From Actinomycetospora lutea (GTDB lineage Bacteria > Actinomycetota > Actinomycetes > Mycobacteriales > Pseudonocardiaceae), in NCBI RefSeq assembly GCF_028737205.1, contig NZ_JAQZAL010000026.1, positions 1 to 64,000 of the forward strand: a stretch of 64,000 bases of DNA. Direction: 5' to 3'. The notes under the pieces were generated by a model. That model was not told where the DNA came from, ran no database searches, and saw only the letters and a list, made by a program, of their open reading frames with translations. Shown one piece after another: positions 5,309-64,000 of the stretch. The position numbers and the translations under genes are program-made. Every line of letters starts with the position of its first letter. Within the stretch, counting starts at the first letter, position 1.

Positions 5309-5324
5309 GTCGGTCTCCCGTGCC

Positions 5325-6053: not shown

Positions 6054-6090
6054 CCCCGTCCCTCCTCGTCCCTGTGGCCGCTGTCGGTGG

Positions 6091-6912
6091 CTAGATCGCC
6101 GGTCGGAGCCAGCGCTCCGAGATCTCGGCCTGGAGCGTGTCGTTCGCGCACCCCGTGTACGCCTCCCAGAGGTCAGCCATGCGGAAGCGCACGATGTAGA
6201 ACCATTCCGATTCCTGGTCCTCCCGATCGAATGCTTCGTCCTCGGGCGCCAGGCTCTCGTAGGAAACCTTGGCCACCGTTCCGCGCGCGCCCCGCAGGTA
6301 TTCCTGGGTGCGCGTATAGAAGATCGTCGGCAGTTCGCGCACGGACACCGTGTCGCCCACCGCGAACGCGGGCGTGCCCGCCGTGCCGGCGAAGCACTGC
6401 GGATCACCCTTGCCGACCGCGTCGAGGTGGTGGCGGTTCCGGGCGACCGCCTCGACGTCCCCGGTCGTGCGGGGCGCGGCGTCGAGGGGTCCGCTGCCGT
6501 CGGCGTGACGATCCCGGACCTCGCTGACCCGCTCGATCAGCTCGCCGAGGGTGATGTGCCGCTTCTCCACCAGGACGCGGGCGACCGCCCACAGCCAGCG
6601 CCCGTAGTAGGGCAGGCCGAGGTAGTTCGTCCGCCCGAGGTCGACGTTCCCGATCCTCCGGCGTTCCTCCGAGGTCCAGATGCCCCGCCATCCCAGGACC
6701 TCACAGGTGACGAACGTGTTGAGCTCCCACTGCTCCTCCTCCTTGTCCTCGAACAAGGCGGGGGCGTCCGGCTCTCCGCCGACGTCGTGCGGGGTCTTCA
6801 TGTAGGCCTGGTACAAACCGTGGTCGATCTGGTCGGGGTACGGCCAGTCCTGGACGCGGTGCAGCGCCACACGCAACTGGCTCGACAGGTCGCCCATCAC
6901 TGAGTTGCCCAC
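6091..6912 (-). CDS. Nitrile hydratase beta subunit
   Basis: The 273-residue product has the helical N-terminal domain (HDVGG near residue 42, then a long helical region to about 140) and the C-terminal SH3-like barrel (FAVGDTVSVREL, about residues 185-196, then YTRTQEYLRGARGTVAKV). It pairs with the alpha subunit and helps form the active-site channel. As the first gene of the operon it precedes alpha by about 40 bases. Beta-alpha order is typical of the cobalt enzymes. The single fused beta chain argues against classical thiocyanate hydrolase, where this part is split in two. Base composition appears slightly less GC-rich than neighbouring genes. Confidence 0.8.
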   Translation of the reverse strand: MGNSVMGDLSSQLRVALHRVQDWPYPDQIDHGLYQAYMKTPHDVGGEPDAPALFEDKEEEQWELNTFVTCEVLGWRGIWTSEERRRIGNVDLGRTNYLGLPYYGRWLWAVARVLVEKRHITLGELIERVSEVRDRHADGSGPLDAAPRTTGDVEAVARNRHHLDAVGKGDPQCFAGTAGTPAFAVGDTVSVRELPTIFYTRTQEYLRGARGTVAKVSYESLAPEDEAFDREDQESEWFYIVRFRMADLWEAYTGCANDTLQAEISERWLRPAI

Positions 6913-49836: not shown

Positions 49837-50541
49837 ATGAGCGAGGACCGACGGGTGCTGTTCCTGCAGCACCAGGACGACTGCGGGCCGGGCCACCTCG
49901 GCGATCGCGTGCGGGAGCTCGGGCTGCCGGTGGAGGTCGCCCACCTCTCCCACGGCGATCGCCCCGCGGACCCGCGCCGCTACGCCCTCGTGGTGGCCCT
50001 CGGCTCCGACGACTCGACGCTCGACGCGGCGGTCCCCTACCTCGCCGACGAGCGGGCGTTCCTGTCCGACGCCGTCGCCGCGGAGGTCCCGGTGCTCGGC
50101 GTCTGCTTCGGCGCGCAGCTGCTCGCCACCGTCCTGGGTGCCCGCGTCCGCCCGCTCGACCGCCCCGAGATCGGGTGGCTCGACGTCGACAGCGTCGCCC
50201 CCGACGTGGTCGGGCCCGGGCCCTGGCTCGTGTGGCACCTCGACGCGTTCGACTGCCCGCCCGACGCCGAGCTGCTCGCGACGACCGACGTCGCCGTGCA
50301 GGCGTTCCGGCAGGGCCCGCATCTCGGCGTCCAGTTCCACCCGGAGGCGACGCCGGAGAGCGCCGGGGCGTGGGCGGCCAAGTACGCCGGGGCCCTCACG
50401 TCGGTCGGTGTGGATCGGTCGGCCCTGCTCGCCGAGACCGACCGGCGGCAGCCCGAGTCCCGCGAACGGGCAGCTCAGCTGGTCGATCGGATGGTGAACG
50501 GCGTTTCCTCAGCGGGCGCGCGGACTACTCTGGGCTCGTGA
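49837..50541 (+). CDS. Class-I glutamine amidotransferase-like protein
   Basis: The 234-residue protein has the GATase-1 triad: the nucleophile Cys in VLGVCFGAQLLA (near 92), and His and Glu in LGVQFHPEATPES (near 167-169). The N-terminus VLFLQHQDDCGPGHLGD is as in GMP-synthase-like free-standing amidotransferases. Its partner reaction is unknown. Overlapped by the XRE-cupin gene (GTGA) and next to the N-methylglutamate locus, it may hydrolyse gamma-glutamyl amides such as surplus gamma-glutamylmethylamide; this is inference from context. Confidence 0.78.
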   Translation: MSEDRRVLFLQHQDDCGPGHLGDRVRELGLPVEVAHLSHGDRPADPRRYALVVALGSDDSTLDAAVPYLADERAFLSDAVAAEVPVLGVCFGAQLLATVLGARVRPLDRPEIGWLDVDSVAPDVVGPGPWLVWHLDAFDCPPDAELLATTDVAVQAFRQGPHLGVQFHPEATPESAGAWAAKYAGALTSVGVDRSALLAETDRRQPESRERAAQLVDRMVNGVSSAGARTTLGS

Positions 50542-51191
50542 CCTCTGCGACCGACGACCCCGGGGCGGCGGAGCCCGGCGCCGTGCCGGAGGAACCGACC
50601 GCCCCGGGTCTCGGTGAGCTCGAGCACGTCATCGCCTCCCGCACCCGGGAGTACCGGATCGCCAAGGGCCTGACGATGACGTCGCTGGCGCGCCGGGTCG
50701 GCATGTCGAAGGCCATGCTCTCGAAGATCGAGAACGCGCAGACCTCGTGCAGCCTCTCGGTCCTCTCCCGCCTGGCCGCGGCTCTGGAGATCCCGGTGAC
50801 CGCGCTGTTCCGCGGCATCGACTCCGATCGCGAGGCGGTGTTCACGCCGGCCGGACGCGGCGCGGAGATCTCACGCCGGGGCAGCAACGTCGGGCACGTC
50901 TACCGGATGCTCGGGGCGCTGCGCGGCCAGCACAAGCGCCTCGAGCCGCTCCTGTGCACGCTCACCGAGGCGAGCGAGGTCTTCCCCCTCTTCCAGCACC
51001 CGGGCACCGAGTTCCTCTTCATGCTCGACGGGGTCATGCGCTACGTGCACGGCGACGCGCAGTACGAGATGCACGCGGGCGACTCGCTGATCTTCGACGG
51101 CGAGGGTCCGCACGGCCCGTCGGAGCTGGTGCAGCTCCCGATCACCTTCCTGACGGTCACCGGCTTCGGCCACATGCCGCCGGTGCCCTGA
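50538..51191 (+). CDS. XRE-type regulator with a cupin domain
   Basis: The 217-residue protein joins a Cro/C1-type helix-turn-helix (TREYRIAKGLTMTSLARRVG, then MSKAMLSKIENAQTSCSL, about 35-75) to a C-terminal cupin (FPLFQHPGTEFLFMLDG, then MHAGDSLIFDGEGPHGP, about 145-200). PuuR-type relatives sense amines, amino acids or gamma-glutamyl compounds. It overlaps the amidotransferase gene and is convergent with folD. It is the only DNA-binding protein encoded within the locus and is the natural candidate to bind the 28-bp motifs. Confidence 0.87.
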   Translation: MTSATDDPGAAEPGAVPEEPTAPGLGELEHVIASRTREYRIAKGLTMTSLARRVGMSKAMLSKIENAQTSCSLSVLSRLAAALEIPVTALFRGIDSDREAVFTPAGRGAEISRRGSNVGHVYRMLGALRGQHKRLEPLLCTLTEASEVFPLFQHPGTEFLFMLDGVMRYVHGDAQYEMHAGDSLIFDGEGPHGPSELVQLPITFLTVTGFGHMPPVP

Positions 51192-51210
51192 GGAGGCCCC
51201 TGAGGAGTCA

Positions 51211-52131
51211 TCAGCGGCGCTTCGCCGCCCGCTCGGCGGCGAGCACCGTGTTCTGCACCAACCACACGTCGGTCACCGGCCCCACCCCGCCCGGCACGGG
51301 TGTCGCGGCACGGGCCACGGCCGCGACGGCGGGGTCCACGTCGCCGACGAGTCGAGTCCGCCCGGTCACCGGGTCGCGCACCGGGTTGATGCCGACGTCG
51401 AGGACGACCGCGCCGGGCGCGACGTGCTCCACGCCGATCAGCCCGGGGACGCCGGCGGCCACGACGAGCACGTCGCCGAGACGCGTGTACTGCGCGAGAC
51501 GCCCGGTCCGGCTGGCGTTCTCGTCGCACGTGACGACGACGGCGCCCCGCTCCGCGGCGAGGGTGGCGGCGGGCTTGCCGACGTTGTTGCTCCGCCCGAC
51601 GACGCAGATGGTCGACGCGCCGTAGAAGGCCTCGCCCTCGACGCCCACCTCGTCGAGCCACGCGTCGAGCAGGTGGAAGACCGACGCCGGGGTGGAGGGC
51701 ACGAAGCGCGGCGTCCCGAGCGCGAGCAGCCCCGCGTTCTCGGGGTGGACCGCCTCGATGTCCTTCGCCGGGTCGAGCGCGGTGAAGATCTCGCCCTCGT
51801 CGAGGTGCGGGGGGAGGGGCCGGAGCACGAGGATCCCGCTGACGGTGGGGTCCGCCCCGAGCCCGACGACGAGCTCCAGCACCTCCTCCCGCGTCGTGTT
51901 CTCCGGCAGCGGGTGATGGCGGTGCACGATGCCGACCGCCGACGCGGCGCGGGCGAGGCGCCGGGCGTAAGCCTGCGCCGCGTAGTCGGACCCCACGAGC
52001 ACGGTGGCCAGCCCGCAGCGCACGCCGAGGCCCGCGAGCCGCTCGACGTCGAACGCGACCTGCAGCTGGAGCGACCGCGCCCGTGCCCTCCCGTCGATGA
52101 CGGCGGTGGGGGACGACCTCTCGACCATCAT
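51211..52131 (-). CDS. folD: FolD-like methylene-THF dehydrogenase with altered catalytic residues
   Basis: FolD normally oxidises 5,10-methylene-THF and then hydrolyses methenyl-THF. The 306-residue product has the FolD fold, the nucleotide motif VVGRSNNVGKP and the C-terminal TPVPGGVGPVT. Aligned by eye to E. coli FolD, Lys54 is replaced by Leu59 (AYARRLAR), Gln98 by Leu103 (ILVLRPLP) and Asp121 by Glu126 (KDIEAVHP). The Lys is essential for cyclohydrolase activity, so this paralogue probably keeps only the dehydrogenase step or has changed function. It lies 15 bases after the permease gene, in the methylamine locus, where methylene-THF is the expected product. Confidence 0.82.
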   Translation of the reverse strand: MMVERSSPTAVIDGRARARSLQLQVAFDVERLAGLGVRCGLATVLVGSDYAAQAYARRLARAASAVGIVHRHHPLPENTTREEVLELVVGLGADPTVSGILVLRPLPPHLDEGEIFTALDPAKDIEAVHPENAGLLALGTPRFVPSTPASVFHLLDAWLDEVGVEGEAFYGASTICVVGRSNNVGKPAATLAAERGAVVVTCDENASRTGRLAQYTRLGDVLVVAAGVPGLIGVEHVAPGAVVLDVGINPVRDPVTGRTRLVGDVDPAVAAVARAATPVPGGVGPVTDVWLVQNTVLAAERAAKRR

Positions 52132-52146
52132 CGCCGTGCCGCCCCG

Positions 52147-53784
52147 TCAGCTCCCGGCCGCGGCGAGCAACTGGCCGATGATCACCATGACCACGCCGCC
52201 GCCCAGCACGAGATAGGGCCGCACGCCGGCGCGCCGGGGGAGCGCGACGGCCCCGCCCTGTCCGCTCTCCTTCGGCAGGTCGTCGCTGAACGAGGGGGGG
52301 AAGACGCCCTTGTCGACGACCTTGTGGCGGTAGTAGAAGACCGGGACGATGATCGCGGCCGCGACCAGGCCGGTCACGAAGGCCCCGCCGCCGAAGACGT
52401 CCGCGCCCCAGCCCAGGAGCAGGGCGTTGACGAAGGCGAGCACGGTGCCGATCGCGATGAGCGCCGTCGGCGCGCGGTAGGGCCGTGGCGCGTCCGGGTT
52501 GTCGACGCGGTGCATCCAGCCGGCGTTGAGGTTGAGGAAATTGAAGATCATGTAGCAGACGGTGGACGTCGCGAGCACGAACACGATGTCGCTGAGCAGC
52601 AGCAGCACGAGGTTGAAGACGAGGTCGGTCCACATCGCGCTCGTCGGCGCTCCGTGCCGGTTGGTGCGCGAGAGGAAGCGGGGCAGCCACCCGTCGCGCG
52701 ACCCCTGGTACAGCGTCCGCGACGAGCCGGCCATCGTCGTCATGATCGTCAGCAGCAGCGCGAGCACGAGCATGACGATGAGCAGGTTCGCGATGACGGG
52801 ACCGCCGCCGACGAGCACCGTCATCGCCTGGCCGACCCCGTTGCCGTCGACGATGTCGTCCTGGGTCAGGCGGTCAACACCGAGCACGCCCTGGAAGGCG
52901 AAGGGCACGAGCGTGTAGATGACGAGGCACGCGATGCCCGCCGAGAGGATCGCCCGCACCGTGTCGCGGCCGGGGTTCTTGAACTCGGCGGTGTAGCAGA
53001 TCGAGGTCTCGAAGGCGTACGCCGACCACGCGGCGAGGAAGAGCCCGCCGGCGAAGAGCGTCCACCCGCTCACGTCCCAGGCCCCGGAGAGCGGGACGAA
53101 CGGCTGGAAGTTGGTGGCGACCACGTCGCCGGTGATCAGGGGCACGACACCGATGACGAGCAGCGGCACGAGGACGGCGAGACCGATCACCGTCTGCACC
53201 CGTGCCGCGCGCAGGATGCCGCCGTGCTGGAGGGCGAAGACGAGGAGCAGGAACAGCGCCGCGATGATGAACTGGGCGTTCAGGCGAACCTCGAGGTCCT
53301 CCTGGATGAAGCCCAGCGGGAGCAGGGTCATCGACCAGGTGTTGATCGTCGCCTCGGCCGGGAAGAGCGCCGTCAGGACGTAGCCCGCGGCGAGCCCGGA
53401 CCCGATGGTGAGCACCGGCGACCAGGCCAGCCAGTTGCACCACACCGACAGGGGAGCGACCGGCTTCGCGTACCGCACCCAGGCCATGGCCCCGTACACC
53501 GAGGCGCCACCGGACTTGCTCGGGAACAGCCCCGCGATCTCGGCCCAGACGAACGACTGGAGCAGGCCGAAGATGATGGACACGGTCCAGACGAGCGGCG
53601 ACGGGGCGCCGACCGTCGCCGCGATCGTGCCGATGGAGAAGAGGACCAGGGCCGGGACGCCGCTGGCGATCCAGAAGGCCCCTTTCCAGTCCAGGGTGCG
53701 GTGCAGGCCGCCGGGGTCGTCCGTGGTCGTGCCCGACGAGCTCGGCGTGCGATCCGGTTCCGGGTCCCGCGTCGTCTCGGTCAT
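52147..53784 (-). CDS. APC-superfamily permease (amino acid/amine transporter)
   Basis: The 545-residue protein has about 12-14 hydrophobic segments, the APC-type GAFWIASGVPALVLFSIGTI first helix, and the FFAETSI-like element AYAFETSICYTAEFKNPGRD of helix 6. Cytoplasmic tails of about 30 and 40 residues flank the core. In this locus it probably imports methylamine, a methylated amino acid or glutamate, but substrate specificity cannot be read from sequence. It is transcribed with folD, and a copy of the shared 28-bp motif lies 250 bases upstream of its start. Confidence 0.85.
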   Translation of the reverse strand: MTETTRDPEPDRTPSSSGTTTDDPGGLHRTLDWKGAFWIASGVPALVLFSIGTIAATVGAPSPLVWTVSIIFGLLQSFVWAEIAGLFPSKSGGASVYGAMAWVRYAKPVAPLSVWCNWLAWSPVLTIGSGLAAGYVLTALFPAEATINTWSMTLLPLGFIQEDLEVRLNAQFIIAALFLLLVFALQHGGILRAARVQTVIGLAVLVPLLVIGVVPLITGDVVATNFQPFVPLSGAWDVSGWTLFAGGLFLAAWSAYAFETSICYTAEFKNPGRDTVRAILSAGIACLVIYTLVPFAFQGVLGVDRLTQDDIVDGNGVGQAMTVLVGGGPVIANLLIVMLVLALLLTIMTTMAGSSRTLYQGSRDGWLPRFLSRTNRHGAPTSAMWTDLVFNLVLLLLSDIVFVLATSTVCYMIFNFLNLNAGWMHRVDNPDAPRPYRAPTALIAIGTVLAFVNALLLGWGADVFGGGAFVTGLVAAAIIVPVFYYRHKVVDKGVFPPSFSDDLPKESGQGGAVALPRRAGVRPYLVLGGGVVMVIIGQLLAAAGS

Positions 53785-54033
53785 CGCCCGTTCCTCCGTC
53801 CTGCGCGATGCGTCAGTCGGTGCTGTGGGCGTCTCCGGACCCTCGCGCCGCTGCCCCGTCCCACCCGACCCCGGACGAGGAGCCCGGTGCGGATCGAGTC
53901 CCGGAGCGACGTCGAACAGCGTGCGGCAGTCTCGGCCGCGAGCCGTCGGATCTGCCCTTCTGCGGATGTTCGATTCGGGCCCCCGCCGCCTCGTGCGGCG
54001 CTGCGGGAGCGGGTATGAGTTCGGTGTGTGGCA

Positions 54034-54061
54034 GTAGACCGCGTTTCACCAGGCGAGACAA
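54034..54061 (+). promoter_or_regulatory. 28-bp locus motif, copy A (permease promoter)
   Basis: The sequence starts GTAGACCGCGTTTCACC and ends GAGACAA. It shares the 5' block GTAGACC and the 3' block GAGACAA with copy B at 59329 and the core GTTTCACCAG with copy C at 59420. Placed 250 bases before the permease start, it is probably a regulator site for the permease-folD operon. Confidence 0.65.
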
Positions 54062-54130
54062 CTGCCGGGCCGAGATCCGCCGAGATCGACGCCCGGACAC
54101 GGGGTCCGCCGCATCAGCGCAGGTCGGGAC

Positions 54131-54155
54131 GGACACCGGAAGGATTCCGGTGTCC
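54131..54155 (-). terminator. Hairpin after the mgs operon
   Basis: GGACACCGGAA (54131-54141) and TTCCGGTGTCC (54145-54155) form a perfect 11-bp stem with a three-base loop, 54 bases beyond the stop of the 163-residue protein. There is no U-run, which is common for terminators in high-GC actinobacteria. It probably separates the mgs operon from the permease operon. Confidence 0.6.
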
Positions 54156-54208
54156 ATCCACCCCGCGGGACCGATCGCCCCGCCGAGCCCGACCCGCGCC
54201 GTGCCGGA

Positions 54209-54700
54209 TCAGAACGTGAACGTCTTGTCCCACCGCTCCACGGTGGGAGGAGTCCAGTTCTCGCCGACGGTCGCCGATCCCTCCAGCCACGGCCCGAGCT
54301 CGGGCTGGGGGAACTTCGCGTGCTGGTGCTTGAGCCAGATCCCGTAGGAGTTGCCCTCCTGGAGGTGCTTGATGAGCACCTTGCGCGCGAACTCGTCCTC
54401 GCGCCCCGACGGGATGTCGAAGTGAATCTTGAGGAAGGCGTTCGTGTAGCGGTCGAAGACGGCCGGGATGCCGTCCTCCTCCATGAGGTGGATGTCCTCG
54501 AGCCAGTTCAGGTCGTCGCCCGGCGTCGCGGCCAGCAGGTCGATGTCCTCGACCAGGCCCGGATCGAACTGGTACGGGAAGGTCCGTCCGGTCAGCTCCT
54601 CGGTGTCGATGCCCTGGCGGGTGGTCAGCCGCCGCTGCGACAGGTCGAACTGCTTCTGGGGGTCGTGCTGCGCGGCGGAGCCCGCGGTCCCGTCAGACAT
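54209..54700 (-). CDS. Unknown 163-residue protein coupled to mgsC
   Basis: I cannot assign a family. The soluble, acidic product has no signal peptide or membrane segment. A disordered N-terminus (1-30) precedes FPYQFDPGLVEDIDLL, then DLNWLEDIHLMEEDGIP, a possible strand-helix region FLKIHFDIPSGREDEFARK, and the aromatic end GIWLKHQHAKFPQPELGPWLEG, given here in parts as IWLKHQHAKFPQPELG and PWLEG. Its ATG overlaps the mgsC stop by eight bases, so both are made together. A role as a fourth subunit, assembly factor or electron-transfer partner of N-methylglutamate synthase is plausible but only inferred from position. Confidence 0.75.
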   Translation of the reverse strand: MSDGTAGSAAQHDPQKQFDLSQRRLTTRQGIDTEELTGRTFPYQFDPGLVEDIDLLAATPGDDLNWLEDIHLMEEDGIPAVFDRYTNAFLKIHFDIPSGREDEFARKVLIKHLQEGNSYGIWLKHQHAKFPQPELGPWLEGSATVGENWTPPTVERWDKTFTF

Positions 54701-56102
54701 CCGAGCCTCCTCCGTCGTTGGCGACGTGCTTGGCGAGCAGGGTCTTGATCTCCTCGAGGGTCTGCGACTCCGTGACCCCCGGGATGTAGCTGGTGCCGGC
54801 CAGGGGCACCCGGGCCATCGCCGACGCCTCGGTGGTCAGCGCCGCGAGGTCCTCGGGCTCGAGACTGTGGACGTCGGTCTTCCCGCAGGCACGGGCGAGC
54901 ATCTGGACCTCGAGGGTCAGGGTGTGCAGGAAGTTGTAGACGCGCGTGGCGCCCTCGTCGACGTCGAGGCGCTTGCGCAGCTCCGGGTCCTGCGTGGTGA
55001 TGCCGGCCGGGTCCTTGCCGGTGTGCCAGTGGTAGAACTCGGCCGCCGAGACGCCGAAGGTGCCCTGGTAGTCGGCGCCCTCGACCTCCTTGTTCGAGCC
55101 CAGGGCCATCAGCGCGGCGCTGCCGATCGCGATGGCGTCCGCGCCGAGCGCGATGCACTTCGCGACGTCGCCGCCGTTGCGGATGCCGCCCGCCACCACG
55201 AGGTCGATCTCGTCGGCGAGGCCGACGTCCTCGAGGGCCCGGCGGGCCTCGGGGATCGCGGCCAGCAGCGGGATGCCGGTCTCCTCGGTGGCGATGTGCG
55301 GGCCGGCCCCGGTGCCGCCCTCGGCGCCGTCGAGGAAGATGACGTCCGGCCCGCACTTGGCGGCCATCCGCACGTCGTCGTAGACGCGGGAGGCGCCGAG
55401 CTTGAGCTGGATCGGGACCTGGTAGTCCGTCGCCTCGCGGACCTCCTGGATCTTCAGCGAGAGGTCGTCGGGCCCGAGCCAGTCGGGGTGCCGCGCGGGG
55501 CTGCGCTGGTCGATCCCGGCCGGCAGCGAGCGCATCTCGGCCACCTGCTCGGTGACCTTCTGGCCCATGAGGTGCCCGCCCATGCCGACCTTGCAGCCCT
55601 GGCCGATGAAGAACTCGACGGCGTCGGCGAGCATCAGGTGGTGCGGGTTGAACCCGTAACGGCTCTGGATGACCTGGTAGTACCACTTCGTGGAGAAGTC
55701 GCGCTCGGGCGGGATCATGCCGCCCTCGCCCGAGCACGTCGCCGTGCCGGCCATCGACGCGCCCTTGGCCAGGGCCATCTTGGCCTCCAGCGACAGGGCG
55801 CCGAAGCTCATTCCGGTGATGTAGATCGGGATGTCGAGCACGAGCGGGTTCTTGGCGAACCGCGACCCGAGGACGGTCTTCGTCGTGCACTTCTCGCGGT
55901 AGCCCTCGATCACGAAGCGCGTGAGCGTGCCGGGCAGGAACACGAGCTCGTCCCAGTGCGGGATCTTCTTGAAGATGCCGCCCCCGCGCATCCGGTAGCG
56001 GCCGAGATCGGCCTTCACGTGGATGTCGTTGATGACCTCGGGAGTGAAGATCCTGCTCTTGCCCAGCCCCATGCTCTCGGAGCTCGCCATCTCGTCGGTC
56101 AT
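54693..56102 (-). CDS. mgsC: N-methylglutamate synthase, FMN-binding glutamate-synthase-like subunit
   Basis: N-methylglutamate synthase turns gamma-glutamylmethylamide and 2-oxoglutarate into N-methylglutamate. This 469-residue subunit is the FMN-binding synthase barrel: TGMSFGALSLEAKMALAKGA, the flavin region LDGAEGGTGAGPHI (about 270) and VVAGGIRNGGDVAKCIALGADA. At the place where glutamate synthases have the Cys motif of the 3Fe-4S cluster it reads EFYHWHTGKDPAGITTQ with no Cys, so that cluster is probably absent. It follows mgsB by 13 bases and overlaps the 163-residue protein. GlxD of rhizobia is a close family alternative. Confidence 0.85.
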   Translation of the reverse strand: MTDEMASSESMGLGKSRIFTPEVINDIHVKADLGRYRMRGGGIFKKIPHWDELVFLPGTLTRFVIEGYREKCTTKTVLGSRFAKNPLVLDIPIYITGMSFGALSLEAKMALAKGASMAGTATCSGEGGMIPPERDFSTKWYYQVIQSRYGFNPHHLMLADAVEFFIGQGCKVGMGGHLMGQKVTEQVAEMRSLPAGIDQRSPARHPDWLGPDDLSLKIQEVREATDYQVPIQLKLGASRVYDDVRMAAKCGPDVIFLDGAEGGTGAGPHIATEETGIPLLAAIPEARRALEDVGLADEIDLVVAGGIRNGGDVAKCIALGADAIAIGSAALMALGSNKEVEGADYQGTFGVSAAEFYHWHTGKDPAGITTQDPELRKRLDVDEGATRVYNFLHTLTLEVQMLARACGKTDVHSLEPEDLAALTTEASAMARVPLAGTSYIPGVTESQTLEEIKTLLAKHVANDGGGSDV

Positions 56103-56115
56103 GTGGCCCTCTCCC

Positions 56116-56910
56116 TCACAGGACGAGCTTGCGCTCGGACGGCTCGAGGTTGTCGTAGTTGTAGAGCTGCTTGCCGCAGACGAACTTGCGGAAGGTGTCC
56201 GGCCGGTCGATGCGGTAGATCCCGAGCTTCCGGTCGAGCAGCTCCTCGTCCTCCGGCGTCATCTCGGCCTCGATGCAGTCGACCCCGAGCGCGGCGACGG
56301 TCCCGCCGACGTAGATCTCGCCGTCGTACATGGAGTCGCCCATGCCGGGCCCGACGTCGCCGCAGATGATCTGGCGGCCGCGCTGCATCATGAAGCCGGT
56401 CATGGACCCGGCGTTGCCGCCGACGACGATCGTGCCGCCCTTCTGGTCGATGCCCGTCCGGGCGCCGACGTGGCCGCGGACGACGAGGTCGCCCCCGCGC
56501 ATGGCGGCGCCGGTGAGCGAGCCCGCGTTCTTGTCGATCACCACGACGCCGGACATCATGTTCTCGGCGACCGACCAGCCGACGCGGCCGGTGATGTGGA
56601 TCTCCGGGCCGTCGCCGAGCGTGGCACCGAAGTAGCCGAGGCTGCCGTTGATGGTGATCCGGCACCGGGCGAGCAGGCCCACGGCGATCGAGTGCTTGGC
56701 GCCGGGGTTCTCGATCCTGACCTCCCGGATGCCCTCGGCGTAGATCAGCCGGCGGAGCTCGAGATTGACCAGGCGGGGGCTGAGGTCCGCGGCGTCGAAC
56801 GTCGCGGTCCCGCCCTCGACGCGGGCCACCTTCGGGGCCTCGGCGTCGGGCTCGGCGAGCCCGCGGATGTCGTTGCGGCCGCGGGTCTCCTGGTCCGTCG
56901 GCGGGTTCAT
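56116..56910 (-). CDS. mgsB: N-methylglutamate synthase, GXGXG (GltB C-terminal-like) subunit
   Basis: The 264-residue product is made of a right-handed beta helix with repeated GxGxG turns: GYFGATLGDGPEIHITG, GRVGWSVAENM, GGDLVVRGHVGARTG and GGTIVVGGNAGSMTG. This is the structural domain that closes the glutamate synthase barrel, here as a separate subunit. The C-terminal CGKQLYNYDNLEPSERKL is conserved in MgsB/GlxC proteins. Its ATG overlaps the mgsA stop as ATGA. It has no catalytic residues of its own. Confidence 0.86.
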   Translation of the reverse strand: MNPPTDQETRGRNDIRGLAEPDAEAPKVARVEGGTATFDAADLSPRLVNLELRRLIYAEGIREVRIENPGAKHSIAVGLLARCRITINGSLGYFGATLGDGPEIHITGRVGWSVAENMMSGVVVIDKNAGSLTGAAMRGGDLVVRGHVGARTGIDQKGGTIVVGGNAGSMTGFMMQRGRQIICGDVGPGMGDSMYDGEIYVGGTVAALGVDCIEAEMTPEDEELLDRKLGIYRIDRPDTFRKFVCGKQLYNYDNLEPSERKLVL

Positions 56911-57836
56911 CGCGACCACACCAGCACCTCCGACTCGTAGGGGTCGTAGGAGTCGATCTCCTGGGGGAGGACCGCGCGGATGGCGCTCTCCTCCGACGCG
57001 AGCGCGACGAGGTTCTCGCCCTCGTGCAGGACCAGCGGCTTCGCGGCCATGGCGTCCTTGGCCATGCCGAGGCTGTCCTCGGTGACCACCAGGTAGGTGA
57101 AGACCCCGTCGAGGTCCTCGAGGCTCTGCTTCATCGCGGTCTCGAGGCTCGTGCCGTCGGCGAGGCGTTCGGCCAGGTAGACCGCGATGATCTCGGAGTC
57201 GCACTCGGACTGGAACCGGTGGCCGTTGCGCTCGAGGCGCCGCCGCCACTGGTGGTAGTTCGTCAGCTGGCCGTTGTGCACCACCGCGACGTCGGAGAAG
57301 GGGTAGGCCCAGTACGGGTGGGCGCCGGCGATGTCGACGTCCGACTCGGTCGCCATCCGGACGTGGCCGATGGCGTGCGTCCCACGGAAGCTGTCGAGGT
57401 GGTACTGGTCGGCGACCGTCTGCGCGTCGCCCAGGTCCTTGACGATCTCCAGCGAGTGCCCGAGGGAGAGCACCTCGCAGCCCCGGATGTCCTCGACGTA
57501 GTCGGCGAGGGGCTTCAGCTCGCCCTCGTAGCGGAAGGTCGCCCGGTACGCGTAGGCCGATTCACCCTCGACGCGGTCGACCGTCGCCCCGATCTTGGAG
57601 AGCCGCGATTCGACCTCACGGCGGTTGCGCTCGAGGCGCTCGTTGTAGTCGAAGTCGGAGGTCTCGTTCGGGTCGGCGAGCTTGAAGCGCATCACGACGA
57701 GCTCCGACGGTTCGCCGTAGAGGGCGTATCCCGCGGAGTCCGGCCCACGGTGCTTCATGGACTGGAGCATCTTCGTCATCTCGGCACCGACGTCGCCCGG
57801 CCCGTCGGTGTGGATGATTCCTGCGATCCCACACAT
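56907..57836 (-). CDS. mgsA: N-methylglutamate synthase, class-II amidotransferase subunit
   Basis: The 309-residue protein starts MCGIAGIIHT, so Cys2 becomes the N-terminal nucleophile of a class-II glutamine amidotransferase. GHVRMATESDVDIAGAHPYW and VVHNGQLTNYHQWRR are the glutamine-binding loops, with an SECDSEIIAVYL segment after them. It is expected to release methylamine from gamma-glutamylmethylamide and pass it to the synthase subunits. GGGAGAACGAC precedes the ATG. It is first of the mgsABC set, 34 bases after gmaS. Confidence 0.87.
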   Translation of the reverse strand: MCGIAGIIHTDGPGDVGAEMTKMLQSMKHRGPDSAGYALYGEPSELVVMRFKLADPNETSDFDYNERLERNRREVESRLSKIGATVDRVEGESAYAYRATFRYEGELKPLADYVEDIRGCEVLSLGHSLEIVKDLGDAQTVADQYHLDSFRGTHAIGHVRMATESDVDIAGAHPYWAYPFSDVAVVHNGQLTNYHQWRRRLERNGHRFQSECDSEIIAVYLAERLADGTSLETAMKQSLEDLDGVFTYLVVTEDSLGMAKDAMAAKPLVLHEGENLVALASEESAIRAVLPQEIDSYDPYESEVLVWSR

Positions 57837-57870
57837 GTCGTTCTCCCTTCGTGTGATCTCGGCAGTGCGG

Positions 57871-59271
57871 TCAGGGGAGGATGTCGAGGTACTCCTTGAC
57901 GTCCCAGTCGGTGACGGCGGCGCAGAACCGCTCCCACTCGTCGCGCTTGTAGTGCTCGAAGACGCGGTACATGTCGCCCGGCATCGCGCTGCGCACGACC
58001 TCGTCGGCGTCGAGGGCCCGGAGGGCGTCCCCGAGGTTCATGGGGATCTTCCGGACCTCCTTGCCCTCGGCCATCGCGTTGTAGATGTTGCGCTCCTCCG
58101 GGGGCCCCGGGTCGAGGTTGCGCTCGATCCCGTCGCCCATCGCCTTGAGGAGGGCCGCGAAGGAGAGATAGGGGTTCACCGCGGAATCGACGGAGCGGTA
58201 CTCGAACCGGTCCGGCGAGCTCACGCGCAGTGCCGTCGTGCGGTTCTGGAATCCCCAGTCGGCGAAGAGCGGGGCCCAGAAGCCCGCGTCCCAGAGCCGA
58301 CGGTAGGAGTTCACCGTGGGGGATGTGATGCAGGTCAGGGCGGAGAGGTGCTCGAGGACGCCGCCGATGGCCGCCAGCCCGATCTTGCTGGGCAGGCGGG
58401 GGTTGTCGCCGTCGGGCAGGAACACGTTGTTCTCACCGCGGTCCCACAGCGACATGTTGTGGTGGCACCCGTTCGCCGACACCCCGGTGAAGGGCTTGGG
58501 CATGAAGCACGGGAAGGCGTTGAACTCGCGCCCGACCTGCCGGCAGATCTGGCGGTAGGTCGTCAGGCGGTCGGCGGTGAGCTCGGCGCGGTCGAACTGC
58601 CAGTTGAGCTCGAGCTGACCGGGGGCGTCCTCGTGGTCGCCCTGGATCATGTCGAGGCCCATCGCGCTGCTGTACTCCATGATCCGGTGGATCAACGGCT
58701 GCAGCTCGCTGAACTGGTCGATGTGGTAGCAGTACGGCTTGGTCATGCCGTCGACGGAGGGCGTGCCGTCGGGATTGGTCTTGAGCCACATCATCTCGGG
58801 CTCGGTGCCGATCTTGAGATGGAAGCCCGTGCGCTCCTCGAAGTCACGATGGATGCGCTTGAGGTTGCCGCGACAGTCGGACGTGAGGAACGAGCCCGGG
58901 TCCTCGGGCTCCTCGCGGCCGCGGAAGAGCGTGCAGAACACCCGCGCGGTCTTCGGGTCCCACGGGAGGACCTGGAAGGTCTCGACGTCGGGCATGCCGA
59001 CGAGCTCGGTGGCCTCCGCCCCGTAACCGATGTATTCGCCGTGCCGGTCGGTGAACAGGTTCGCCGTTGACCCGTAGACGAGCTGGAAGCCCTTCTGGGT
59101 GAAGCGCTCCCAGTGGTCGGCGGGCGCGCCCTTGCCCATGATCCGGCCCGTGACCGAGGCGAACTGGTAATAGATGTACTTGACGTCGCCCTCGTCGATC
59201 TTGCGTCGAACTTCCTCGATCGCCTCTTTGCGCCCGTCCTGGGCGACGAAGTTCTCGATGTCGGTAGGCAT
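57871..59271 (-). CDS. gmaS: Gamma-glutamylmethylamide synthetase (glutamine-synthetase-like)
   Basis: The 466-residue enzyme joins methylamine to glutamate with ATP. It carries glutamine-synthetase motifs: IGTEPEMMW (metal-binding Glu), GDHEDAPGQLELNW, the ATP-binding SANGCHHNMSLW, and the C-terminal NRTTALRVSSPDRFEYRS, then VNPYLSFAALLKA. The substitutions NGCHHN for the usual NGxGxHxH and the cluster context support GMAS rather than ammonia-assimilating glutamine synthetase. GGGAGGGCAGTGTC precedes the ATG. It opens the leftward operon and shares a 267-base promoter region with mgdA. GlnT of rhizobia is the close paralogous alternative. Confidence 0.85.
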   Translation of the reverse strand: MPTDIENFVAQDGRKEAIEEVRRKIDEGDVKYIYYQFASVTGRIMGKGAPADHWERFTQKGFQLVYGSTANLFTDRHGEYIGYGAEATELVGMPDVETFQVLPWDPKTARVFCTLFRGREEPEDPGSFLTSDCRGNLKRIHRDFEERTGFHLKIGTEPEMMWLKTNPDGTPSVDGMTKPYCYHIDQFSELQPLIHRIMEYSSAMGLDMIQGDHEDAPGQLELNWQFDRAELTADRLTTYRQICRQVGREFNAFPCFMPKPFTGVSANGCHHNMSLWDRGENNVFLPDGDNPRLPSKIGLAAIGGVLEHLSALTCITSPTVNSYRRLWDAGFWAPLFADWGFQNRTTALRVSSPDRFEYRSVDSAVNPYLSFAALLKAMGDGIERNLDPGPPEERNIYNAMAEGKEVRKIPMNLGDALRALDADEVVRSAMPGDMYRVFEHYKRDEWERFCAAVTDWDVKEYLDILP

Positions 59272-59328
59272 GACACTGCCCTCCCGGGTCACGGTCCGGT
59301 GTGGACCTCGTGAGCGCGGCCACAGTGA

Positions 59329-59356
59329 GTAGACCGTGTTCACCTGGGGGAGACAA
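59329..59356 (+). promoter_or_regulatory. 28-bp locus motif, copy B (gmaS side)
   Basis: It starts GTAGACCGTGTTCACC and ends GAGACAA, 58 bases before the gmaS ATG. Compared without gaps with copy A it matches at 21 of 28 positions; allowing one gap in the TTTCACC block the match is higher. GTAGAC and GTTCAC give the motif a weak dyad. On the minus strand TTGTCT-N17-TCTACT is arranged like a promoter, so binding could overlap the gmaS promoter. Confidence 0.68.
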
Positions 59357-59419
59357 CCGGCTGCCTCAAACTTTGTGGGATCGATGTCGCCCGGTCCGTC
59401 ACGGAGGCGGCGCCCGGCC

Positions 59420-59447
59420 TTGTCTACTCGGGGTGGACACTGTTTCA
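59420..59447 (+). promoter_or_regulatory. 28-bp locus motif, copy C (mgdA side)
   Basis: The block TTGTCTACTCGG precedes GTGGACACTGTTTCACCAG, which aligns with the GTAGACCGCGTTTCACCAG of copy A at 15 of 19 positions. It overlaps the predicted -35 element of mgdA, so a bound protein would directly affect that promoter. It is 92 bases upstream of the mgdA ATG. Confidence 0.65.
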
Positions 59448-59462
59448 CCAGCCTCGTACGGT
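59434..59462 (+). promoter_or_regulatory. Candidate mgdA promoter
   Basis: TGGACA (59434-59439) and TACGGT (59457-59462) are separated by exactly 17 bases, close to the actinobacterial housekeeping consensus of TTGACA and TANNNT. The start point would fall near 59469, giving a leader of about 70 bases before the mgdA ATG. The -35 lies inside copy C of the locus motif. Confidence 0.5.
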
Positions 59463-59538
59463 CTGCGTCACACCACCCCCTCCCGCTCGACGGGTGCCGG
59501 AGGGGTGGTCCTCGAGACGCCGAGGCGAGGACGACTCC

Positions 59539-60846
59539 ATGAACGGCAACGGGCACCGGTCCGCGAACGGCAACGGCAACGGTCACCGGCCGGCGAAGCT
59601 GCGCGGCTACTCGGCGTGGAGCCTCGTGCAGCACGGGCTGTCCCGGGGGGACTGGCCGCGCACGTGGCACGACCACGACATGCGCGACAGCTACGACGTC
59701 GTGATCATCGGTGGTGGCGTCCACGGCCTGGCCACGGCGTACTACCTGGCCCGCGACCACGGCATCACGAACGTGGCCGTCCTGGAGAAGGCCTACATCG
59801 GCTCCGGCGGGTCGGGGCGCAACACCGCGATCCTGCGGTCGAACTACCTCACCCCCGAGGGCGTGCGGTTCTACGACCGGTCGGTGAAGCTCTACGAGAA
59901 CCTGGCCGCGGACCTGAACTTCAACGTCATGTTCTCCCAGCGCGGGCACCTGACCCTGGCCCACAACGACGCGTCGCTGCGGACCATGCGCTGGCGCAGC
60001 GAGGTCAACAAGCACGAGGGCGTCGATTCCGACGTCATCGGGCCGGACGAGGTCAAGGGCCTGGTGCCCTACCTCGACACCTCGCCCGACACCCGCTATC
60101 CGATCCTCGGGGCGCTCTACCACCCGCCGGGCGGCATCGTCCGGCACGACGCGGTGGTGTGGGGCTACGCCAGGGGGGCGGACGCGAACGGCGCGCACAT
60201 CCACCAGCTCACCGAGGTCACCGACATCGACGTCGAGCACGGCCGGGTCACCGGCGTGCGGACGAACCGCGGGCGGATCGCCACGAAGGCCGTCGTCAAC
60301 TGCACGGCCGGGTGGGCGAGCCTGATCTCGGACATGGCCGGGGTGTCGATGCCGGTGCAGACCTTCCCGCTGCAGGCGGCGGTGACCGAGCCGGTGCGCC
60401 CGTTCCTCGACACCGTCGTCGTGTCGGGCACGCTGCACGTCTACGTCAGCCAGACCGACCGCGGCGAGCTCGTGTTCGGCGCCAGCGTCGACCCCTTCGC
60501 CTCCTACTCGATCCGCGGGTCGCTCGAGTTCACCGAGGGCGTGGCCGGCCACGTCCTCGAGCTGATGCCCGCCCTGTCGAAGATGCGGCTGCTGCGGCAG
60601 TGGGCGGGTCTGTGCGACATGACGCCGGACTACAGCCCGATCATGGGCCCGACGCCGGTCGAGGGCTTCTACGTCGACGTCGGCTGGGGCACGTACGGGT
60701 TCAAGGCGGGCCCGGTCTCCGGTGAGGCCATGGCCGCGACCGTCGCGGACGGGGCGCCTCCGGAGATCATCTCCTCGTTCGGGCTGGACCGCTTCGCCGA
60801 CGGGCGCCTCGTCGGGGAGAAGGGCGCCGCCGCGGTGGGCCACTGA
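59539..60846 (+). CDS. mgdA: N-methylglutamate dehydrogenase subunit A (SoxB-like flavoprotein)
   Basis: The 435-residue flavoprotein has an Asn/Gly/His-rich N-terminus (NGNGHRSANGNGNGH) and then VVIIGGGVHGLATAYYLARD, the FAD Rossmann motif at about 56-75. GGSGRNTAILRSNYLT holds the DAO-family loop, and the C-terminus has WAGLCDMTPDYSPIMGPTPVEGFYVDVGWGTYGFK, read in parts as TPDYSPIMGP and GWGTYGFK. SoxB-like subunits carry the substrate-oxidising flavin. Next to gmaS and mgsABC its substrate is most likely N-methylglutamate rather than sarcosine. GAGGACGACTCC precedes the ATG. It opens the rightward operon. Confidence 0.83.
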   Translation: MNGNGHRSANGNGNGHRPAKLRGYSAWSLVQHGLSRGDWPRTWHDHDMRDSYDVVIIGGGVHGLATAYYLARDHGITNVAVLEKAYIGSGGSGRNTAILRSNYLTPEGVRFYDRSVKLYENLAADLNFNVMFSQRGHLTLAHNDASLRTMRWRSEVNKHEGVDSDVIGPDEVKGLVPYLDTSPDTRYPILGALYHPPGGIVRHDAVVWGYARGADANGAHIHQLTEVTDIDVEHGRVTGVRTNRGRIATKAVVNCTAGWASLISDMAGVSMPVQTFPLQAAVTEPVRPFLDTVVVSGTLHVYVSQTDRGELVFGASVDPFASYSIRGSLEFTEGVAGHVLELMPALSKMRLLRQWAGLCDMTPDYSPIMGPTPVEGFYVDVGWGTYGFKAGPVSGEAMAATVADGAPPEIISSFGLDRFADGRLVGEKGAAAVGH

Positions 60847-60893
60847 TGCCCCCGCCCATCCGACCGATCGACCGATCCGGCAGGTGATGACCC

Positions 60894-61157
60894 ATGATGC
60901 TTCTGCCGTGCCCGTGGTGCGGGCCGCGGAACGCGACGGAGTTCCGCTACGGAGGGGCGACCGGTGCGCGCCCCGATCCGGTGTCGGCGACGCCGCAGCA
61001 GTGGCGGGAGTACCTCTACACGCAGACCAACCCCCTCGGGTGGTCGCGTGAGGGCTGGTACCACCGCGCCGGCTGCCGCCGCTACATCACGGTCGAACGG
61101 CACACCGGGACGAACGAGGTCCGGTCCGCCCTCGACACCGCGACGGAGGACGGCTGA
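60894..61157 (+). CDS. mgdB: N-methylglutamate dehydrogenase subunit B (SoxD-like, zinc)
   Basis: The 87-residue product has a zinc site LLPCPWCGPRNATEF (Cys6 and Cys9) with His and Cys later (WYHRAGCRRY), as in the delta subunit of heterotetrameric sarcosine oxidase. The subunit is structural. A second ATG lies at 60897, so the start could be one codon later. Its stop overlaps the next ATG as TGATG. The order B, D, A of the sox-like genes is standard. Confidence 0.87.
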   Translation: MMLLPCPWCGPRNATEFRYGGATGARPDPVSATPQQWREYLYTQTNPLGWSREGWYHRAGCRRYITVERHTGTNEVRSALDTATEDG

Positions 61158-64000
61158 TGAGCCTCACGACCCCGGACCCCACCCCGACCACCACCCGCGC
61201 CCGGCCGGGCCGGCTCGCCCCCCAGCCGGGCGAGGTGATCGACCGCCGGCGCCCCGTGACCTTCACCTGGAACGGGGTGACCCACCGCGGCTTCCGGGGC
61301 GACACCATCGCCTCGGCGCTCGCGGCGTCCGGCGAGCGCGTGTTCTCCCGGAGCTACAAGTACCACCGCCCGCGCGGCCTGCTGACCGCCGACTTCCTCG
61401 ACCCGGGCTGCAGCGTCCAGGTCGGCGACGAGCCGAACGTGCGCGGCGGGCACCGGCTCGTCGAGGACGGGATGGTCGTCAGCTCGCAGAACACCTGGCC
61501 CTCGCTGAAGTTCGACGTGAAGGCCGTCAACGGGCTGGCGGGCCGCTTCCTCGCCCCCGGCTTCTACTACAAGACGTTCATCAAGCCCCAGCGCCTGTGG
61601 CCGCTCTACGAGAAGGTGCTGCGCCGGTTCGTGCACGCCGGCGAGATCACGGCGGACGTGTCCGGTGGCGTGCCGGGCGAGACCTTCGACAAGCGCTACG
61701 CCCACCCCGACGTCGTGGTCGCGGGCGGCGGGCCCGCGGGCATGGCGGCGGCCGTCGCGGCGGCGCTCGCCGGGTCGCGGGTGATGCTCGTCGAGGAGGA
61801 GCACGAGCTGGGCGGGCACCTGCGGTGGGGCGACGCCGACGACCGCGAGGCGCTGCGCGACCTGCGCGCGCAGGTCGCCGCCGAGCCGGGGATCGAGGTC
61901 CTGACGAACTCCGTGGTCAGCGGGCGCTTCGACGACAACTGGCTCTCGATCGTCCAGCGCGGGCTGCCGCAGGTGTTCGAGCGCCTGATCAAGGCACGCG
62001 CGGCGACGATGATCGTGGCGCCCGGTCTCATCGAGCGCCCCTACGTCTTCGAGGGCAACGACCTGCCCGGCGTGATGCTCTCGACCGCCGTGCGCCGGCT
62101 GATCAACCTCTACGCGGTGCGCCCGGGCTCGCGGGCCGTCGTGCTGACGGCGAACCCCGAGGGCGACGCCGCGGTGGAGGACCTGCGCCGGGCGGGCGTC
62201 GAGATCGCCGCCGTGGTCGACGCGCGGGCGGGCGACACCGTCGTGCGCGCCACCGGCCGCTCGGAGGTCACCGGGGTGGAGCTGTCCACCGGCGCGCGGA
62301 TCGCGTGCGACCTCCTCGTCACCGCCGTCGGCTGGACCGCGCCGACGTCCCTGCTCAACATGGCGGGCGACCGGCCGGTGTACCGGCCGCAGGCGGCCCG
62401 GTTCCTGCCCGACCCGCAGCGCATGCCGGAGAACGTGCTGGCGACCGGCGGCATCGTCGGCGACGGCACGGTGACCGAGCTGGTCGCCCACGCCACGGCG
62501 ATCGGGCGCGAGGCCGCGCGCCGCGCCGCGGCCCGGGCCCGCGCGATCGGCGAGGCCGTCCCCACCCGGGGCGGGGACGCCCCGGCGCTGCCGAATCCGG
62601 ACCCCACCCCGGTCGACGTCCCCGTCCTCGCGCCCGCCGACCACCCGGAGCTGTTCCAGGGCTCCACCCACGGGTTCGTCGACTTCTGCGAGGACGTGTC
62701 GTCCAAGGACCTCGTGATCGCCGTCAAGGAGGGCTACGACTCGATCGAGCTCGTCAAGCGCTACACGACGGTCACGATGGGCCCGACCCAGGGCAAGCTC
62801 GAGACCGTCAACACGGTCGCGATCGTGGCGGCGGCGACCGGGCGCACGATGGCCGAGACGGGCACGACGACCTGGCGGCCGATGTACGCGCCGGTCACGC
62901 TGGGCGCGCTCGCCGGCCGCATCCACGAGCCGGTGCGGTACTCGCCGATGCAGAGCTGGCACGAACGCCACGGGGCGACGCCCCTGGTCGCGGGCCAGTG
63001 GATCCGCCCCGAGCACTACGGCGACCCGGCCGCCGAGGTCCGCGCCGTCCGCACCGGGGTGGGGATCATCGACGTCACCCCGATCGGCAAGCTCGACCTG
63101 CGCGGGCCGGACGTGGCGCAGCTGCTCAACCTGCTCTACGTGAACAAGTGGTCGAAGCTCGGGATCGGACGGGTCCGCTACGGGGTGATGTGCGCCGAGG
63201 ACGGCGTGGTGATGGACGACGGGGTCACCGGCCGCCTCGGCGAGGACCACTACCTGATGTCGACCACCTCGTCCGGGGCGGCGACGGTGTGGGAGTGGGT
63301 GGAGGACTGGCTGCAGACCGCCCACCCGGACTGGCGGGTCCACGTCACCCCGGTGACGACCGCCTACGCGAGCATCAACGTCGCGGGACCCCGCTCCCGG
63401 GAGCTGCTCGCCGGGCTCACCAATGTCGACCTGTCCGCCGACGCGTTCGGCTACATGCAGGTCCGCACCGGCGCCGTCGCCGGCGTGGACGACTGCGTGC
63501 TGTGGCGGATCGGGTTCACCGGCGAGCTGTCCTACGAGATCCACGTGCCGGCCTCGTACGGCCTGCACGCGTGGGAACGGCTCATGGCCCACGGCGCCGA
63601 CCTCGGGGTGCAGCCGTTCGGGGTGGAGGCCCAGCGCATCCTGCGCCTGGAGAAGGGCCACTTCATCGTCGGGCAGGACACCGACGGGCTCACCAGGGCC
63701 TACAGCGGCGCCCTGGACTGGGCGATCAAGCTCGACAAGGACGACTTCGTCGGCAAGCCGGAGCTGGTCTGGCAGCAGGAGCAGGGCGTGACGACGCAGC
63801 TCGTCGCGCTCCAGCCGGACGACCGCACGACGGTGCCCGAGGAGGCGAGCCAGATCCTGGCCGCGGACGGGCGGATCGCCGGGCGCATCACCTCGAGCCG
63901 CATGTCGCCGACGCTCGGCCGGTCCATCTGTCTCGGTCAGCTCGAGCCGGCGCTCGCGGCGCCCGGCACGGTCGTCACCGTGCGCCTGGTCGACGGCCGG
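61157..64000 (+). CDS. mgdC: N-methylglutamate dehydrogenase subunit C (SoxA-like), 3' end beyond the window
   Basis: The frame stays open for 948 codons to the right edge, nearly the full length of SoxA-type alpha subunits (about 960-1000). Domains in order are: a ferredoxin-like region (about 28-115, RSYKYHRPRG), an NAD/FAD-type domain (VVVAGGGPAGMAAAVA near 190), a SoxA-type linking segment (STHGFVDFCEDVSSKDL near 505-521, TVTMGPTQGKLE), and a GcvT-like aminomethyltransferase domain (about 590 on, HYGDPAAEVRAVRTGVGIID). The last domain hands the formaldehyde unit to tetrahydrofolate, linking the reaction to folD. The gamma subunit gene probably follows outside the window. Confidence 0.87.
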   Translation, partial: MSLTTPDPTPTTTRARPGRLAPQPGEVIDRRRPVTFTWNGVTHRGFRGDTIASALAASGERVFSRSYKYHRPRGLLTADFLDPGCSVQVGDEPNVRGGHRLVEDGMVVSSQNTWPSLKFDVKAVNGLAGRFLAPGFYYKTFIKPQRLWPLYEKVLRRFVHAGEITADVSGGVPGETFDKRYAHPDVVVAGGGPAGMAAAVAAALAGSRVMLVEEEHELGGHLRWGDADDREALRDLRAQVAAEPGIEVLTNSVVSGRFDDNWLSIVQRGLPQVFERLIKARAATMIVAPGLIERPYVFEGNDLPGVMLSTAVRRLINLYAVRPGSRAVVLTANPEGDAAVEDLRRAGVEIAAVVDARAGDTVVRATGRSEVTGVELSTGARIACDLLVTAVGWTAPTSLLNMAGDRPVYRPQAARFLPDPQRMPENVLATGGIVGDGTVTELVAHATAIGREAARRAAARARAIGEAVPTRGGDAPALPNPDPTPVDVPVLAPADHPELFQGSTHGFVDFCEDVSSKDLVIAVKEGYDSIELVKRYTTVTMGPTQGKLETVNTVAIVAAATGRTMAETGTTTWRPMYAPVTLGALAGRIHEPVRYSPMQSWHERHGATPLVAGQWIRPEHYGDPAAEVRAVRTGVGIIDVTPIGKLDLRGPDVAQLLNLLYVNKWSKLGIGRVRYGVMCAEDGVVMDDGVTGRLGEDHYLMSTTSSGAATVWEWVEDWLQTAHPDWRVHVTPVTTAYASINVAGPRSRELLAGLTNVDLSADAFGYMQVRTGAVAGVDDCVLWRIGFTGELSYEIHVPASYGLHAWERLMAHGADLGVQPFGVEAQRILRLEKGHFIVGQDTDGLTRAYSGALDWAIKLDKDDFVGKPELVWQQEQGVTTQLVALQPDDRTTVPEEASQILAADGRIAGRITSSRMSPTLGRSICLGQLEPALAAPGTVVTVRLVDGR

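Follow-up and report, generated by a model that had tools for sequence, protein, structure and literature searches.

Gene content and context of the locus

The window analyzed here is a 64,000-nt stretch of the draft genome of Actinomycetospora lutea (positions 1–64000 of contig C25, 81,338 bp; assembly of 6.53 Mb, 96.3% complete with 3.0% contamination), whose right-hand part carries genes for methylated amines centered on GSx, a glutamate-amine ligase, and on three synthase subunits designated MgsABC-x. Judging from sequence, this is probably a trimethylamine/trimethylamine N-oxide (TMA/TMAO) cluster in which dimethylamine (DMA) would be handled via a glutamate-linked route instead of the DMA monooxygenase. 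Among named organisms, Actinomycetospora succinea is closest, its GSx being 97% identical.

Two sets of genes run in opposite directions from a divergent promoter region of 267 bases (59272–59538), which contains two mirrored 23-nt sites. Leftward, on the minus strand, lie GSx (57871–59271), a proposed gamma-glutamyl-dimethylamide synthetase from a clade apart from GmaS; MgsA-x (56907–57836), a class II amidotransferase subunit with PF13522 that begins MCGI; MgsB-x (about 56116–56910, start inferred from sequence), the GXGXG subunit with PF01493; MgsC-x (54693–56102), the subunit with the FMN glutamate-synthase domain PF01645; and X163 (54209–54700), a conserved protein of 163 amino acids (aa) located between MgsC-x and a permease. 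Three neighboring genes thus encode the GATase domain, the GXGXG domain, and the FMN glutamate-synthase domain, so the synthase is of the MgsABC type. Rightward, on the plus strand, the N-methylglutamate dehydrogenase subunits MgdA (SoxB-like; 59539–60846), MgdB (SoxD-like, PF04267; 60894–61157), and MgdC (SoxA-like; 61157–64069) follow, the last of which crosses the window edge at 64000. MgdD (SoxG-like; 64062–64721) was found rightward of the edge on the same contig, completing the SoxB-SoxD-SoxA-SoxG-like gene order of MgdABCD. The leftward genes continue with the TMAO permease (52147–53784, minus strand; 804 bits on NF053774, cut-off 690) and FolD, a methylene-tetrahydrofolate (methylene-THF) dehydrogenase/cyclohydrolase (51211–52131, minus strand), beyond which an XRE-cupin regulator (about 50538–51191, plus strand, start inferred; HTH_3 and Cupin_2) and an accessory class I glutamine-amidotransferase-like protein (49837–50541, plus strand; Pfam GATase) are encoded.

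A first-pass annotation of the window had read these genes as a complete N-methylglutamate pathway, with gmaS, mgsA, mgsB, and mgsC leftward and mgdA, mgdB, and mgdC rightward of a 267-base gap, flanked by permease, folD, amidotransferase, and XRE-cupin genes, and with a fourth dehydrogenase subunit expected past the right edge. All of these features were found, and the fourth subunit is MgdD; what stands is a complete locus for the glutamate-linked handling of methylated amines, in which none of the four dehydrogenase subunits is lacking, and what falls is the assignment of its synthetase to GmaS. The first-pass annotation described the pathway as best known from proteobacteria; its presence in an actinobacterium is not new in itself, since the N-methylglutamate pathway is reported from Mycobacterium in an earlier study (PMC5023230).

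The TMA/TMAO character of the cluster was hidden from the first-pass annotation by the window edge. Farther right on the contig, an EamA transporter (about 64946–66031) is followed by the TMAO demethylase Tdm (66459–68828; 1190 bits on NF053776, cut-off 1100), the trimethylamine monooxygenase Tmm (68859–70199; 799 bits on NF058570, cut-off 675), and a sarcosine-oxidase-like flavoprotein designated DAO (about 72768–74102). Since Tdm and Tmm exceed their cut-offs and the permease passes the TMAO permease model, the contig carries a TMA/TMAO cluster.

Relationships of the ligase, synthase, and flavoprotein

GSx scored 322 bits on TIGR03105, below its type III cut-off of 470 bits, both at full length and without its first 21 residues, while a paralogue on contig C14 of the same genome reached 594 bits. 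Against two solved GmaS proteins, GSx without its first 21 residues gave about 206–210 bits and the C14 paralogue 404–408. In a 44-row tree, built with a quick method and containing two long outgroup branches, GSx formed one clade (26 rows, support 100) separate from the 16 GmaS rows (support 88), which took in the two solved proteins, 7cql and 9qur, and the C14 gene. The model score and the clade placement rule out a canonical GmaS, and the phylogeny that the first-pass annotation had suggested as a check on this assignment set the window gene apart from GmaS, an outcome that it had named as refuting.

The amine-site residues Lys30, Tyr147, Gln175, Asp177, Glu179, Glu186, and Asn188 of the solved RhGmaS, whose roles are described in PMC7948447, were kept in all 102 aligned GSx rows (90 distinct, some genes having been fetched twice), as were Trp300 of the flap, Arg312, and Arg317. 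The same rows lack the Asp50 and the flap Glu of glutamine synthetase (GS), which rules out a glutamine synthetase, and by its conserved amine-site residues GSx still looks like an amine ligase. Uniform differences from RhGmaS were Ala48 to Val, Tyr174 to Ile, and His237 to Asn; GSx also has a longer loop following position 48, a feature to be read with care in an alignment between distant families. RhGmaS itself is poor on DMA, with a Km of 16.07 × 10^3 (in the unit of the table) versus 58 for ethylamine and a value for methylamine that is stated to be the lowest (PMC7948447).

The synthase subunit MgsC showed a parallel separation, as 22 MgsC-x rows split from six canonical MgsC rows with support 100 in a 28-row tree; the first-pass annotation had asked for such a tree, and the window MgsC falls outside the canonical clade. 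In an alignment of 28 X163 rows, which come from several phyla, the motifs NWLED and FDR were invariant; the protein had no Pfam match and no fold match (best E 2.3). Searching named genomes confirmed at least 589 GSx candidates, of which the best 80 loci were kept; 48 of these are at least 14 kb long and many end at contig ends, and gene calls, which are unreliable in the GC-rich loci, were used solely for named matches. GSx, MgsA, MgsB, and MgsC were colinear in 55 of the 57 loci with at least 5.2 kb downstream, and X163 came next in all 55. DAO was present in 36 of the best 80 loci, and Tdm, Tmm, or the TMAO permease in 29. MgdA lies divergently beside GSx in 10 of the 80, so the layout, called distinct by the first-pass annotation, is real but recurring rather than unique.

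The genome of A. lutea carries a second such locus on C14 (1–20000, L010), with the canonical GmaS, MgdABCD, a GntR/FCD regulator, an amino-acid permease, MgsA, and MgsB; no MgsC is visible there, the contig beginning at MgsB. The window and C14 copies are only 29% identical in GS and 33% in MgsA, but 87% in MgdA, 78% in MgdC, 72% in MgdB, and 56% in MgdD. The simplest sense of this contrast is that two amine-specific entries would meet at one product, N-methylglutamate. Methylamine, the substrate originally given for the window locus, would then be better assigned to C14, and the window locus would fit DMA. Sarcosine oxidase was set aside for the Sox-like genes of the window because their nearest paralogues in the genome adjoin the canonical GmaS, which does not amount to proof. 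A third Sox-like set on C21 (L011:6841–14124; MgdA 49%, MgdC 35%) is adjoined by a further GcvT-like and DAO-like stretch and may genuinely serve sarcosine or dimethylglycine.

GSx could instead be a second GmaS for methylamine, with an ordinary N-methylglutamate pathway beside TMAO genes. The conserved GmaS amine site, the accompanying MgsABC and MgdABCD, and the position of methylamine downstream of TMAO in known pathways all fit this explanation, which we nevertheless regard as unlikely. A canonical GmaS is already available on C14, and canonical genes share one locus with the GSx set in L017, L018, L025, L035, and L048 (the canonical genes being partial in some) and in L155, a locus of a small alphaproteobacterial genome (GC 36.5%) in which the GSx block stands with canonical MgsABC and GmaS; two ligases for methylamine would be redundant there. 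The distribution of DmmA described in the next section also bears on this explanation.

DAO was found at E 1e-60 or better in all 10 GSx- and Tdm-positive genomes of Actinomycetota and in 12 of the 18 GSx- and Tdm-positive genomes tested overall, was partial in G578, and was not found in the DmmA-positive G278. Its alignment had a mean column identity of 70% over 20 rows. An AlphaFold2 model (mean pLDDT, the predicted local distance difference test, 86) was closest to the beta subunit of sarcosine oxidase, the next matches being monomeric sarcosine oxidase, a proline dehydrogenase, dimethylglycine oxidase, and dimethylglycine dehydrogenase; no sequence relative was found in the PDB at 1e-10. 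In G575, which has no DAO, MgdABC-like genes adjoin the GSx block, and MgdABCD may take over the DAO step there.

A different order of steps would let GSx act on DMA and the amide be demethylated to gamma-glutamylmethylamide before entering the canonical Mgs route, leaving MgsABC-x spare. In many genomes DAO does adjoin the GSx block, and several also carry canonical GmaS/Mgs genes; yet a dedicated MgsABC-x colinear with GSx, an MgsC-x clade of its own, and nearest DAO folds that act on N-methyl amino acids and not on amides make this order highly improbable.

Co-occurrence with Tdm and near-exclusion of DmmA

The association of GSx with Tdm was examined in 396 evenly sampled genomes of Actinomycetota, 11 of which were Tdm-positive (10 over the cut-off and one near full length at 1031 bits), GSx being called at E 1e-100 or better and the genome searches scoring the first two to four candidates per genome. 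GSx was present in 10 of the 11 Tdm-positive genomes versus 3 of the 385 others (p = 1.3e-16). PF11927, the DmmA family, was matched in one of the 11, G278 (212.9 bits), which is the sole one without GSx, and a DmmA-type PF11927 had no match in the A. lutea assembly (96.3% complete).

A second sample covered the order of a Paracoccaceae genome (Rhodobacterales-like), where 55 of 244 genomes had Tdm over the cut-off and PF11927 matches fell into a high group (219–240 bits) and a low group (at most 186 bits). The low group occurred in 29 of 47 DmmA-positive genomes, in 5 of 7 GSx-only genomes, and in 9 of 12 genomes with a sub-cut-off Tdm-like protein alone; being spread over all three classes, it does not track the trait. 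Counting the high group as DmmA, 46 Tdm-positive genomes had DmmA only, seven GSx only, one both (G615), and one neither (G578; p = 3.1e-7). The genome with neither has truncated DAO and GSx stretches run together (L127, about 5170–6906) beside MgsA and MgsC matches, which looks like the remnant of a decayed copy. Over both groups, the 66 Tdm-positive genomes comprised 47 with DmmA only, 17 with GSx only, one with both, and one with neither (Fisher p = 1.3e-13). Fifty genomes of the 80 named GSx loci were also searched, many of them metagenome-assembled and perhaps incomplete, and high-scoring DmmA was found in none (seven with PF11927 matches, each below 186 bits; 43 with none).

A second GmaS leaves this near-exclusion unexplained, because a ligase would still be required for the methylamine that DmmA produces. 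It is also conceivable that GSx handles another amine, for example a different secondary amine, and that the link to Tdm and the exclusion of DmmA were inherited in few lineages. Independent transitions on the Tdm tree are indeed few (GSx needs five changes), and some GSx genes occur without Tdm. The same pattern was, however, seen in Actinomycetota and in the Rhodobacterales-like order, and GSx lies about 5–14 kb from Tdm on the same contig in G028, G238, G436, G511, G586, and G615 and likewise in L156, so that we consider another amine quite improbable.

GSx occurs in Actinomycetota and Proteobacteria, among the latter streamlined alphaproteobacteria of 1.2–1.4 Mb, and a further occurrence is in a record that bears the title Chloroflexi; within an even draw of Alphaproteobacteria it was present in 31 of 337 genomes. 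For G717 and G892, both small and low in GC, genome size and GC suggest a streamlined type. In L156, from a 1.2-Mb alphaproteobacterial contig (GC 33.6%), one run comprises a Tmm match at the edge of the stretch, betaine-type ABC transporter genes, Tdm, DAO, GSx, MgsABC, X163, an ammonium transporter, and canonical GmaS. An MgdA-like gene considered in the same locus was rejected, as Pfam places it in a family of PLP (pyridoxal phosphate)-dependent enzymes.

Predicted dimethylamine route

On balance, we judge it somewhat likely that GSx, MgsABC-x, X163, and in many genomes DAO constitute an unrecognised pathway for DMA via gamma-glutamyl-dimethylamide and N,N-dimethylglutamate. By homology, Tmm would convert TMA to TMAO, and Tdm would split TMAO into DMA and formaldehyde. 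GSx would then join DMA to glutamate at the expense of ATP, giving gamma-glutamyl-dimethylamide, from which MgsABC-x would pass the amine to 2-oxoglutarate to form N,N-dimethylglutamate. DAO would remove one methyl group as formaldehyde to yield N-methylglutamate, or, where DAO is missing, MgdABCD may carry out both demethylations. MgdABCD would oxidize N-methylglutamate, yielding glutamate together with methylene-THF, whose one-carbon (C1) unit FolD would carry on; the net outcome would be two C1 units from DMA, with its nitrogen left in glutamate. The substrates and products assigned to GSx, MgsABC-x, and DAO, as well as the role of X163, are predictions from homology and gene context.

Several observations weigh against this route. 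The conserved pocket residues mark an alkylamine site and would suit methylamine as well as DMA. In the Rhodobacterales-like order, only two of the eight GSx-positive genomes have DAO and six do not, and it occurs alongside DmmA in G657, where no GSx was found; the homologue there (L129:8476–9906, 59%) means that the DAO family is not confined to the proposed pathway. Three Actinomycetota genomes have GSx-like genes but no Tdm. The DmmA cut (>212 versus ≤186 bits) was chosen after the gap had been seen, and low-scoring PF11927 genes are present in five of the seven GSx-only genomes of the Rhodobacterales-like order. Twelve genomes with sub-cut-off Tdm-like proteins (1023–1080 bits) had neither GSx nor high-scoring DmmA; these proteins may be another paralogue, but the Tdm of L156 also scores low, at 1082 bits. 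Five independent pairs on the Tdm tree gave three opposite, none the same, and two without difference (p = 0.25, underpowered). Since only first candidates were scored and the genome of A. lutea is itself a draft, absences are not final.

The proposed route resembles the N-methylglutamate pathway in the types of its synthase and dehydrogenase subunits and in the amine-site residues of its ligase, and it differs in the separate clades of ligase and MgsC, in the X163 that follows MgsC, in the frequent addition of DAO, and in its association with Tdm where DmmA is missing. Dimethylglycine is demethylated in two steps, by DMGDH or DMGO to sarcosine and then by sarcosine oxidase to glycine. The likeness to that chain lies in the two-step flavoprotein N-demethylation of a dimethylated amino acid, with a DAO model matching its folds, whereas the steps predicted here would take place on glutamate, with the substrate formed from free DMA and not from glycine betaine products. 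The TMA cluster of Ruegeria pomeroyi (Tmm, Tdm, DmmDABC, GmaS-MgsABC, and MgdABCD; PMC13390433) shares the overall task, Tmm, Tdm, and MgdABCD, but in place of DmmA, which was not found here, there are GSx and MgsABC-x, with DAO in two-thirds of the GSx- and Tdm-positive genomes. DmmDABC is the route of known bacteria, and according to that study a dmmA mutant of R. pomeroyi fails on DMA and DMA precursors.

If the proposed route is true, it would answer how bacteria without DmmDABC handle DMA and would fill the DMA bottleneck. According to Lidbury et al. (2017; PMC5520151), DMA is a metabolic bottleneck without DmmDABC, and SAR11 lacks the genes; for HTCC1062, Sun et al. (2011; PMC3160333) describe the glxBCD genes as an operon and also a glnT (SAR11_1316). 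A 2015 survey gives no separate DMA enzyme candidate for Gram-positive methylamine users (PMC5023230), and the present locus names candidate genes for this step. Searches of an open-access library, in which most subscription journals are absent, turned up no account of DMA being routed through glutamate, and the names glutamyl-dimethylamide, dimethylglutamate, and dimethylglutamine returned nothing on methylotrophy, judging by titles and abstract starts. Estimates of methylamine users may be affected if similarity surveys count GSx as gmaS.

With respect to regulation, the mirrored 23-nt sites in the divergent gap lie at 59333–59355 (minus strand) and 59421–59443 (plus strand), and a pattern built from these two gave similar sites (at most three mismatches) upstream of GSx in 5 of 16 loci examined (L012, L013, L022, L026, and L029). 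A cluster of XRE-cupin-like proteins is represented in 21 of the best 80 GSx loci, one member of which (L014) was confirmed as XRE-cupin by Pfam. The XRE-cupin protein is a candidate binder of the sites.

Among the remaining neighbors, the amidotransferase-like protein had weak matches (31%–37%) in the GSx loci L122, L124, L125, and L128 and in the remnant L127. To the right of Tmm, C25 encodes an aminotransferase near the BhcA model but below its cut-off (70693–71913), an acylase-like gene (75068–77389), and a second XRE-cupin gene (79403–79909). A low-scoring PF11927 gene adjoins a sub-cut-off Tdm-like gene in G436 (C1:2672219–2675571). In several alphaproteobacterial GSx loci, a 196-aa protein without a Pfam family (L124:3371–3961) and a carbon-nitrogen hydrolase (L122:14895–15743) are encoded nearby.

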